Positions 34,396 through 36,650 of a stretch of 58,444 bases of DNA are shown one piece after another. This DNA comes from Nitrosarchaeum sp. Lineage in GTDB: Archaea; Thermoproteota; Nitrososphaeria; Nitrososphaerales; Nitrosopumilaceae. Where the stretch lies: NCBI GenBank assembly GCA_021414105.1, contig JAIOPB010000062.1, forward strand, positions 1 to 58,444, given 5' to 3'. Position 1 is the first letter of the stretch; every line of letters begins with the position of its first letter. Below the pieces are notes generated by a model. That model was not told where the DNA came from. It saw only the letters and a program-made list of their open reading frames with translations, and ran no database searches. The position numbers and the translations under genes were made by a program.

Positions 34396-34716
34396 ATGGA
34401 TAGAATTAAGCGTCTTTCTTATGAAGTATTAGGTGGACACAAGCCAAAATTCGGGGAAGATTTTGCTGATAATAAGAAAGCATTAGATCAAATAGCTATA
34501 ATTCGTTCAAAAGGACTAAAAAATGAAATTGCAGGTTACATTACTAAATTTATTAAAAAAGAAAACCGTGAAGAAAAAGCAAAACAATCTCAAATAGAAT
34601 CTTCTAAAATTGAAAATTATACTTTGGAAGAGAAAATTTCTGAAGATGATGCCATTGAAGAGGAAATTATTGCAATAACATCTAACTCAGAAACAAATGC
34701 AGACGCAGAAGAATAA
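34396..34716 (+). CDS. rps17e: 30S ribosomal protein eS17 (S17e) with acidic tail
   Basis: 106 residues. The first 60 match archaeal/eukaryotic S17e: KFGEDFADNKKAL and SKGLKNEIAGYITKFIKK. The last 45 residues are an acidic Glu/Ser tail (EEKISEDDAIEEEII) that bacterial-size archaeal S17e lacks. Starts 31 bases after the TatD-like gene. Confidence 0.9.
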   Translation: MDRIKRLSYEVLGGHKPKFGEDFADNKKALDQIAIIRSKGLKNEIAGYITKFIKKENREEKAKQSQIESSKIENYTLEEKISEDDAIEEEIIAITSNSETNADAEE

Positions 34717-34767: not shown

Positions 34768-35541
34768 ATGATAATGATTAAACTTGTAGGAGGAGCAAAA
34801 AAGTCATTTTTTACTGATATATTAAAAATTGATAAATCTGATATCTACATTAAAGATCTTATTGATTTACTATTGGAACTAAAACCTACTAACACTCCTA
34901 ACTTAGATGTTGAAAATATATTGATAGCGATTAATGGTGTTGATTCTTCTGCTCTGGAAGGAAAAATGACTAAAATAAAAAATGATGATGTAGTAAGTAT
35001 AATTCCTGTTATTCATGGAGGTTCACCTAAAAGACTGATTTTCAATGTTTCAAACAAATTAGTCCAGGTGATTGAAATTCAAGGTCAAAAACAAATTGAT
35101 ATTGCTTATCTTGATACCCTCCGAAAGCAATTTCCTGGAATTAAACTTCAGGCCATATCTAGTAATTTTATTCTAAATAATTATCATCTAAAAAAAATTA
35201 TTTCCTTATCTGTTTCTTCTGATAAAAATAATATTTTACTTTCAAATAAATTTGAAATGGATATTTTAATGCGCTTTGCTATTTCTTCACAGATTTCTTC
35301 TGCAATTAATTCAGCTGGAATCAAATCACAACAAAATTTTATTTTGATTGCTCTTGGTAATAAAAAAACATTAGATGCACTTTATAAAGAACTGAGTTTT
35401 ATGTCTGTTAAAATATTCTCGAAAGATAATACTTCATTTATAAAAAAATATTTCCAAATAACAAATAAACAACTTGATGTAGTTTTGTCAAAAAATCCTC
35501 TTGAAGATATACTAATAGAAAAAGCTGCTATTTTACTCTGA
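34768..35541 (+). CDS. Fusion of a MoaD/ThiS-type ubiquitin-like domain and KEOPS subunit Cgi121
   Basis: 257 residues. Residues 1-86 are a beta-grasp sulfur-carrier-like domain: VKDLL-like IKDLIDLLLEL, ILIAINGVDS, VVSIIPVIHGG, ending in a Gly-Gly pair (84-85) that in SAMP/MoaD proteins is the C terminus. Residues 95-257 match Cgi121 of the KEOPS complex (N6-threonylcarbamoyladenosine in tRNA): LLSNKFEMDILMRFAISSQISSAI aligns with the conserved MEILVRASGQRQIHEAI block, and ILIEKAAILL with the C-terminal helix. It converges on the THUMP gene with a 9-base overlap. Assignments are by eye. Confidence 0.82.
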   Translation: MIMIKLVGGAKKSFFTDILKIDKSDIYIKDLIDLLLELKPTNTPNLDVENILIAINGVDSSALEGKMTKIKNDDVVSIIPVIHGGSPKRLIFNVSNKLVQVIEIQGQKQIDIAYLDTLRKQFPGIKLQAISSNFILNNYHLKKIISLSVSSDKNNILLSNKFEMDILMRFAISSQISSAINSAGIKSQQNFILIALGNKKTLDALYKELSFMSVKIFSKDNTSFIKKYFQITNKQLDVVLSKNPLEDILIEKAAILL

Positions 35542-36054
35542 TATGCTTCTCTTAGTTTTTTCTACGCTCAAAACATCTTCTTTTTTGACAATTGCAATTC
35601 CTGTTTGATTTCCCAACACTTCAATTAATATAATTTTATCAGGGAATTCTAATGATACTTTATTTTTAATTTTTTTTGCTATTCTAGAAATTAATTCTTG
35701 ACTTGAAATGTTAGAATTTCTTTTCTCAATTGATATTCTATATGATTCTCCATTAGAAATTAATTCAATTAAATCTGAAATTCCATCTTCAATACTTTCA
35801 ATCTTGGTTTCTATAATTTTTTGAATGGGGATTATTCTGAGACAATATCTAATACACCATGGTTCATCTAGTAACATTTCTTTGATTTTTTTTACAACCT
35901 CAATTGATTCTAATTTTGTTTCAGCAGTCAAAATTCCCGACATATTTGTGATAGTTATTTTAGGTTCTGAATCTCCTATTTTTTCTAAAATATCTATTAA
36001 TTCTTGTCTAGTTTCCGATTCTAAATGTCTGGCACATGTAATTATTAGATTCAA
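35533..36054 (-). CDS. THUMP domain protein (Tan1-like)
   Basis: 173 residues covering an N-terminal ferredoxin-like part and a THUMP RNA-binding domain (about 60-165: IRYCLRIIPIQKIIETKIES, SYRISIEKRNSNISSQELISRIA, GIAIVKKEDVLSVEKTKR). It resembles archaeal/eukaryotic Tan1, the tRNA-binding adaptor for N4-acetylcytidine formation. Its ATG overlaps the sua5 stop by 4 bases. Which modifying enzyme it serves is unknown. Confidence 0.88.
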   Translation of the reverse strand: MNLIITCARHLESETRQELIDILEKIGDSEPKITITNMSGILTAETKLESIEVVKKIKEMLLDEPWCIRYCLRIIPIQKIIETKIESIEDGISDLIELISNGESYRISIEKRNSNISSQELISRIAKKIKNKVSLEFPDKIILIEVLGNQTGIAIVKKEDVLSVEKTKRSISE

Positions 36055-36650
36055 AGTATTTTCAAGATCTCATTTCGTGTTAAAACTCCTTCTCTGTGAA
36101 TTTTCAATTTTCCTTCTTCAAATTCAATTATTGTTGATTCTCCCTCACTTGTTATTATTCCCCCATCCAAAAAAAGATCAAAATCGTGGATGTTTTGATA
36201 ACACTCTTGTGGGTTTCTAAATGGACCGGTTCCAGAAATATTTGCGCTTGTTCCAATAACAAAATCGCATTCTTTTAAAAGTTCTAATGTACATTGATGT
36301 TTTGGAACTCTAATTGCAATTTTATCAACACCATTTAGTGCTGCTTTAAGTTTTTCATCTGTTACTTTTAAAATTAAAGTCAGAGGTCCTGGCCAAATTT
36401 TATGTGCAATCTTTTCTGAACCTTTGTCGAATTCTACAATTTTTGCTGCAACCTCTTTTGAAAAAGCTAAAATTGGAAGCGATTTTGAAATTTCTCTTGA
36501 TTTAATTTTGTAAATTCTTTTAATTGCTTCTTTATTATATGGATCACAACCAATTCCATATACAGTATCTGTTGGAAAAACAACAATACCACCATTTTTG
36601 ATTATTTCACTTGCTTTTGCAATATTTTCTTTATTACACTTTAATTTCAA
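36051..36650 (-). CDS. sua5: L-threonylcarbamoyladenylate synthase (Sua5/YrdC family)
   Basis: 199 residues, YrdC domain. It makes threonylcarbamoyl-AMP, the donor for the KEOPS complex. FPTDTVYGIGCDP, KSREISKSLPIL, WPGPLTLIL, AIRVPKH and GTSANISGTGP are the family blocks. The extra C-terminal Sua5 domain is absent. It is upstream of the THUMP gene in the same direction and near the Cgi121 fusion. Confidence 0.94.
   Translation of the reverse strand: MKLKCNKENIAKASEIIKNGGIVVFPTDTVYGIGCDPYNKEAIKRIYKIKSREISKSLPILAFSKEVAAKIVEFDKGSEKIAHKIWPGPLTLILKVTDEKLKAALNGVDKIAIRVPKHQCTLELLKECDFVIGTSANISGTGPFRNPQECYQNIHDFDLFLDGGIITSEGESTIIEFEEGKLKIHREGVLTRNEILKIL

Follow-up and report, generated by a model that had tools for sequence, protein, structure and literature searches.

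The fusion of a ubiquitin-like (UBL) domain to Cgi121, a subunit of the KEOPS complex, was described by Makarova and Koonin in 2010 (PMC2948915). In the available part of that account, the fusion is reported in all the thaumarchaeal genomes then available, the Ubl-Cgi121 gene of N. maritimus is apparently cotranscribed with that of S17, and regulation by SAMPylation or a coordinated function, linked to KEOPS and t6A, is proposed. The UBL-Cgi121 architecture was therefore already known, and the first-pass annotation of the locus analysed here, which knew of no description of such a fusion, was mistaken on this point. Our locus shares with the described system the architecture, the S17 neighbour and the proposed link to KEOPS and t6A, whereas unfused neighbours, fusion and splitting, the Gly-Gly at the junction, phosphoribosyltransferase fusions and precursor cutting do not appear in the available part of the 2010 text. 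The conservation of the junction Gly-Gly, the unfused neighbours, the repeated fusion and splitting and the phosphoribosyltransferase partner are what the present analysis adds. By title, no work after 2010 on this fusion was found in the open-licence literature, and no test of the link between a UBL sulfur carrier and KEOPS proposed in 2010 was found there either.

Other UBLs are also made as parts of larger proteins. In Haloferax, HvJAMM1 cuts the SAMP1-MoaE linear fusion after the Gly (PMC4443979), and a JAMM-cut MoaD-MoaE linear fusion in Deinococcus is cited in PMC11237513. As far as these sources were available, SAMP1-MoaE and MoaD-MoaE resemble our locus in having a UBL with Gly-Gly joined head to tail to a genomic partner and a JAMM in the genome (PMC4443979); they differ in that the partner is MoaE and the cutting of SAMP1-MoaE has been shown, whereas here the partner is Cgi121 and the cutting is putative. 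Both hallmarks of JAMM-processed linear fusions, a junction Gly-Gly and a JAMM in the genome, are present, and the cut itself may be supposed by analogy. The UBL-E1 (MoaD-MoeB) fusion, reported in 61 of 98 Thaumarchaeota assemblies in the accessible text of PMC11237513, likewise has an N-terminal UBL with an internal Gly-Gly (tail PAVAGG); it differs in carrying a MoaD-type UBL on an E1 enzyme, and in the genome studied here it is a separate gene elsewhere (G000:C59). The Urm1 of Sulfolobales belongs to the same Urm1 family and shares the HGG tail (PMC12625751) and, according to PMC2948915, the S17 neighbourhood. Unlike our UBL it is a free protein with proven conjugation (PMC12625751), and Cgi121 is absent from that group according to the part of PMC2948915 available.

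Domains and neighbours of the fusion gene

The window (the whole stretch of DNA analysed, 58,444 nucleotides from Nitrosarchaeum sp.) carries the fusion gene at 34768..35541 on the + strand, confirming the position given in the first-pass annotation, a frame with an ATG start encoding 257 aa plus a stop, defined by its ORF coordinates and by Pfam and NCBIfam matches. Residues 1-85 (34768..35022, +) constitute a Urm1/ThiS/MoaD-type beta-grasp domain, assigned by PF02597, Urm1 structures and model fold matches. The ThiS profile PF02597 matches residues 28-85 (E 3.5e-6, 27.9 bits) above the Pfam cut-off of 22.5; the Pfam Urm1 model PF09138 stays just below its cut-off of 21.8 (21.6 with the domain by itself, 18.4 with the full 257 aa), and the NCBIfam UBL models score the window protein far below theirs. 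A profile made from 18 relatives retrieved Urm1 structures for the first half (T. brucei 2k9x, 7.2e-7; yeast 2pko, 0.0013), while the second half retrieved Cgi121/TPRKB structures. Weak matches of the Cgi121 half to Rab and other PDB entries (E about 0.02) were taken as chance. The domain ends in a His-Gly-Gly tail motif, residues 83-85 (CAT GGA GGT; 35014..35022, +), in which Gly84-Gly85 (35017-35022) directly follow His83, the internal Gly-Gly that had been read in the first-pass annotation.

The Cgi121 domain comprises residues 88-257 (35029..35538, +) and is assigned by PF08617, NF011465 and fold matches. The Pfam model CGI-121, PF08617, covers residues 123-254 with E 1.5e-5 and 25.5 bits against a cut-off of 25, and the NCBIfam model NF011465 'KEOPS complex subunit Cgi121' gives E 1e-49 and 168.7 bits against a cut-off of 40. 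The conserved block by which this domain had been recognised was also recovered: in the profile alignment the M. jannaschii Cgi121 block MEILVRASGQRQIHEAI aligns with fusion residues 164-180. Aligned against the residues given in the accessible part of PMC7718258, the block of residues 164-184 (35257..35319, +) is the counterpart of the region that binds tRNA CCA in M. jannaschii Cgi121, whose CCA-binding residues are Gln28, Lys56, Met60, Gln71, Ile72, Ile76 and Gly80. At these 7 alignable positions, Phe21 of M. jannaschii lying outside the alignment, 6 residues are identical in the fusion (Gln128, Met164, Gln175, Ile176, Ile180 and Gly184), and Asn160 replaces Lys56. The position of Met164 is occupied by Thr in many relatives.

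An AlphaFold model of the fusion has a mean pLDDT of 89.1 and a pTM of 0.65. Fold comparison matched model residues 1-85 to Urm1/MoaD chains with Z about 9-12, the highest value being that of the MoaD-type chain 6jbz_B (Z 11.8, 79 residues, rmsd 2.4); the Urm1 chain 7q5n_G gave Z 11.6 (85 residues, rmsd 2.2). The model thus shows the beta-grasp fold whose absence from a structure prediction would have been a refutation for the first-pass annotation. Residues 88-257 match TPRKB and plant, yeast and M. jannaschii Cgi121 chains with Z 12-18; against plant Cgi121 (8k20_C) Z is 18.0 over 161 residues with rmsd 2.7. In the alignment with human TPRKB (6wqx_A), the first TPRKB residue falls on model residue 88, so that hardly any linker separates Gly85 from the point where Cgi121 naturally begins.

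The first-pass annotation had left two readings of this arrangement, cutting after the Gly-Gly or use of the domain as a scaffold, and our results uphold this as the right choice to be made. As a permanent scaffold, the UBL would stay on Cgi121 as a domain of KEOPS, for example binding tRNA, a partner or NcsA, and the Gly-Gly would be a flexible hinge. The least confident ten-residue block of the model, residues 81-90, lies around the Gly-Gly junction, as such a hinge would, and the fusion of neighbouring genes often reflects contact between their proteins. Together with the start of Cgi121 directly behind the Gly-Gly, this dip in confidence also suits a cut. Against this, a pTM of 0.65 with confident domains, in a model that comes without domain-domain error, gives no sign of fixed docking.

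The gene directly upstream of the fusion, across a gap of 51 bases, encodes an S17e-like ribosomal protein (34396..34716, +; PF00833, E 1.3e-17), and a TatD gene also lies upstream on the same strand. On the other side, a convergent gene for a small THUMP-domain protein (35533..36054, -; PF02926, E 9.7e-8) stands between Cgi121 and a Sua5/TsaC gene (36051..36650, -; PF01300, E 6e-51, and TIGR00057, E 6.5e-49, above cut-off), whose product makes the t6A intermediate. The THUMP gene shares 9 bases with the 3' end of the fusion gene, and its start shares 4 bases with the end of the Sua5/TsaC gene (- strand, window 35533-36650); the arrangement suggests that THUMP and Sua5/TsaC form a unit of two tRNA-modification genes that points towards the fusion gene. 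By sequence resemblance, an S17e-like gene also precedes the UBL in L292, L293 and L295, and genus g15 has the S17e-UBL neighbourhood without Cgi121 (L301, L302). Together with the unfused UBL and Cgi121 pairs beyond the class (see below), these neighbourhoods make S17e-UBL-Cgi121 look like the old unit, the fusion being secondary. In g15 another gene, RNA-binding KH-like by eye, follows the S17e-UBL pair (L301:353-949, - strand; L302:1187-1795).

Fused and separate forms and the Gly-Gly junction

With the window protein as query, matches were obtained in 37 of 41 relatives, and the two-domain frame, which the first-pass annotation had proposed to look for more widely, recurs in relatives of the family at 93 to 37% identity, more than chance would give. 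The match is a single frame in Nitrosopumilaceae, except in G006, where the frame is broken (L020), and mostly two neighbouring frames in the rest of the order. The only argument for an artefact of assembly or gene calling is that many of the genomes are drafts, and this explanation is refuted: the same frame stands in five one-contig genomes (G014, G009, G020, G018 and G023) and in 80 of 80 named records. HGG is present in all 80 of these records, a count that is biased because one of the three search patterns contained HGG and that we used only against an artefact. A 68% identical UBL-Cgi121 fusion was also seen in a record titled Proteobacteria (L214), which is most likely a mis-binned Nitrosopumilus contig.

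The two parts lie in different frames at 34 loci, comprising 32 separate UBL genes, the broken L020 and a different fusion, L082; at one of the separate genes, L085, Cgi121 is more than 600 bases away. HGG is kept in all 32 separate UBL genes. Compared with free Urm1, ThiS and MoaD, the UBL of the window has its Gly-Gly inside the protein, where it would become a free C-terminus only by cutting, whereas 22 of these 32 separate homologues end exactly at HGG and the other 10 have 1 to 9 further residues. In a second set 16 of 16 UBLs keep HGG (15 separate and one in a phosphoribosyltransferase fusion). The genus g53 has fused (6 loci) and separate (3) forms side by side. Cgi121 without an adjoining UBL was seen at the g15 loci L068, L070 and L071, and a UBL without Cgi121 at L030. 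In several unfused pairs, e.g. L025, L026, L061, L067, L084, L292, L293 and L295, an ATG in the Cgi121 frame lies inside the HGG codons CAT GGN, so that changing one base could be enough to join or separate them.

Beyond the class we surveyed the 74 best-scoring genomes with both genes listed, taking the best UBL match only, so that a second UBL could be missed. Among the matches listed, 13 of 13 genomes of the families f30, f35 and f48 have the UBL ahead of a Cgi121 gene of the same strand, with a gap of 55-754 bases, and none of 61 genomes of 16 other families showed this pair. A different partner was found in two lineages of different classes, where a UBL is joined after HGG to a phosphoribosyltransferase and the gene that follows is Cgi121 (L082:1276-2133 in G034; L289:794-1705 in G477).

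Among 140 distinct fused proteins, 139 retain the Gly-Gly; of the 140, 52 come from named records passing a filter that requires HGG and the other 88 from HMM searches. Among these 88, gathered without a Gly-Gly filter by HMMs whose 21 seed proteins had been chosen with the HGG pattern, it is kept in 87; the HMM set had 89 proteins with a called start, from which the partial L156 was left out, and L079 (fused, with HGG) was left out for want of a start. Over the 140 proteins the mean entropy is 0.41 bits for residues 77-85, compared with 1.43 for residues 1-76, 2.29 for residues 86-95 and 1.37 for Cgi121 residues 125-200, and all four glycine codons are in use at both Gly-Gly positions. A constant HGG followed by a drifting stretch has the look of a protease site or a C-terminus. 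A hinge in a permanent scaffold needs no near-invariant Gly-Gly and preceding tail while the later residues drift. Even so, the conservation of the Gly-Gly could have a cause other than cutting.

The junction follows HGG in every fused frame read, except in G038, whose fused UBL-Cgi121 frame (L027:880-1611) has LHCSAF at the junction in place of Gly-Gly. No E1 or JAMM match was found in G038, a small genome that is 82% complete. This case is what would be expected if the fusion were neutral or decaying, the UBL having lost its role as a modifier and being carried along; against that stand the Gly-Gly in 139 of 140 proteins and a UBL whose residues 1-76 are about as conserved as residues 125-200 of Cgi121, and we consider such decay very unlikely for the family.

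On a tree of 63 hand-picked Cgi121 rows, the label fused or separate changes 8 times, at least 5 of the changes being forced by well-supported branches, and none of 200 bootstrap trees gets by with only one change. The rows L044, L052 and L066 were below the length limit and left out, and 'separate' here includes the phosphoribosyltransferase fusions L082 and L289 and the g15 rows L068 and L070 without a neighbouring UBL. Sequence error is possible for L297 and L298, on which two of the 8 changes depend, as both come from draft genomes of Nitrosopumilaceae. L297 (G266) is split at the junction, where HGGA is followed by TGA and a possible TTG start, and L298 (G240) has a frame change just after HGG; by a rough, post hoc estimate, the chance of both breaks falling at the same short place is about 0.002.

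The first-pass annotation had taken homologues with the two parts separated by a stop codon as a refutation of the fusion. Such homologues were found many times, and the fusion nevertheless stands, because the fused and split states proved interchangeable. This interchange, together with the swap of partner, indicates that a lasting covalent link between UBL and Cgi121 is not required. It weakens an obligate scaffold and favours cutting after the Gly-Gly; joining and separation just after the Gly-Gly suggest that the halves are cut apart or are independent of the join. A neutral link would likewise account for repeated fusion and fission. Within Nitrosopumilaceae nearly every genome where the gene was recovered has the fused frame, and this is expected of a scaffold too. 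Considering that the parts have separated repeatedly and that two lineages have the UBL fused to another protein, we regard a permanent scaffold as unlikely, with perhaps one chance in four.

JAMM, E1 and other UBL genes

Prok-JAB (JAMM) was detected in 224 of 232 genomes of the class. The window's genome has two, both with the HSHP...D motif, which we take to be the JAMM metal motif. As JAMM is this common, its presence counts for little as evidence of cutting. It was not found in 8 of the 232 genomes, namely G177, G273, G093, G042 and each of the four f14 genomes tested. G177 and G273 are fragmented drafts of Nitrosopumilaceae, 90-91% complete; G273 carries a fusion that was read (L151), and that of G177 is presumed from a 259-aa frame; the lack of a JAMM match in these two speaks against cutting. 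HGG is the exact end of five f14 UBLs (L026, L031, L035, L040 and L078), three of which belong to the four f14 genomes tested. This pattern of a UBL ending in HGG where JAMM is missing speaks for cutting, but is that of one clade only.

The presence of JAMM in the genome would also suit a linear fusion that keeps KEOPS, or the UBL, switched off until it is cut. There is a precedent in Haloferax, where SAMP1-MoaE is inactive until cut (PMC4443979, as far as available). The unfused relatives, however, would be without such a switch, and inactivity of the Cgi121 fusion would be an extension by analogy from SAMP1-MoaE; we think a switch of this kind improbable, at roughly one chance in eight.

The E1 of the window's genome (G000:C59; PF00899, E 2.2e-74) is a 448-aa frame with its own MoaD-type UBL and an internal AGG, so that JAMM and E1 genes occur in the same genome as the fusion. 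A UBL-E1 fusion with internal AGG was also seen at L157:906-2249. In the f2 and f14 genomes examined the counterpart of this UBL is a separate gene, having residues after AGG in L165 and ending exactly in SGG in L167. ThiS matches were obtained in 24 of 25 Nitrosopumilaceae genomes, and all 40 matches lie in frames of 257-498 aa, i.e. in fusions. The ThiS profile, which would miss a UBL too divergent for it, revealed no free UBL in these 25 genomes, the 25th, 61% complete, having no match.

No match to PF00899 was obtained in 39 of 232 genomes of the class, including 30 of the 136 Nitrosopumilaceae; among the 106 E1-positive Nitrosopumilaceae, three (G019, G127 and G258) are counted on weaker ThiF matches alone. 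When the 30 negative genomes were searched again with the E1 of the window's genome, 28 gave no match, G208 gave fragments and G203 a weak piece broken by a stop. The Gly-Gly is kept in the E1-negative Nitrosopumilaceae wherever the fusion was recovered; in G125 no fusion was recovered. Absence of E1, if real, would count against sulfur transfer or conjugation. E1 is, however, present in 24 of 24 one-contig genomes of Nitrosopumilaceae as against 82 of 112 drafts (Fisher p 0.002), and the gene order of G003 equals that of the closed genome G014 up to a contig end inside a very large gene beside E1. Because absence is confined to drafts and the G003 contig breaks next to the position of E1, it is untrustworthy, and missing E1 in drafts may be an assembly gap. 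We therefore dropped loss of E1 as evidence that the UBL works without it: no closed genome is without E1, and the G003 contig ends beside it. The very large gene adjoining E1, where the draft contig breaks, has about 1,700 residues (L305:8543-15192; end of L310). In the stretch C4:60001-200000 of G114, no match to the L305 ORFs around E1 was found.

The PP-loop enzyme PF01171, an NcsA-type candidate, was tried as a discriminator and rejected, as it is present in 34 of 34 genomes tried and does not separate the hypotheses. Strong matches (1e-17 to 1e-21) are missing in G000, G004 and G152 and present in the others.

A candidate precursor cut after the Gly-Gly

The explanation we favour, which we consider to have an even chance of being right, is that the fusion is a precursor of an Urm1-type UBL and Cgi121 that would be cut after Gly85 by a JAMM. 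UBL and Cgi121 would have been inherited as an old neighbouring gene pair, and in Nitrosopumilaceae the stop and start between them would have been lost, leaving the UBL as an N-terminal extension. A JAMM (Prok-JAB) metalloprotease would most likely make the cut after Gly85, releasing a UBL whose HGG is now a free C-terminus, along with a Cgi121 that has nearly its normal N-terminus. As part of KEOPS, the released Cgi121 would bind the CCA end of the tRNA in t6A synthesis, and the free UBL would be open to activation by E1 for sulfur transfer or conjugation.

More tentatively, and with somewhat less confidence, we propose that the Urm1/MoaD-type modifiers of Nitrosopumilaceae may all be made only as N-terminal parts of precursors, UBL-Cgi121 and UBL-E1, whose release would depend on JAMM, like the eukaryotic fusions of ubiquitin with ribosomal proteins. 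The UBL would join the following gene, Cgi121 or phosphoribosyltransferase, after HGG, which would set the amounts of UBL and KEOPS together.

Given how the junction has evolved, the choice between cutting and scaffold is no longer an open guess but can be tested directly on one peptide bond. If this bond is cut, abundant archaea of ocean and soil make ubiquitin-like proteins as precursors, their supply tied to tRNA modification.
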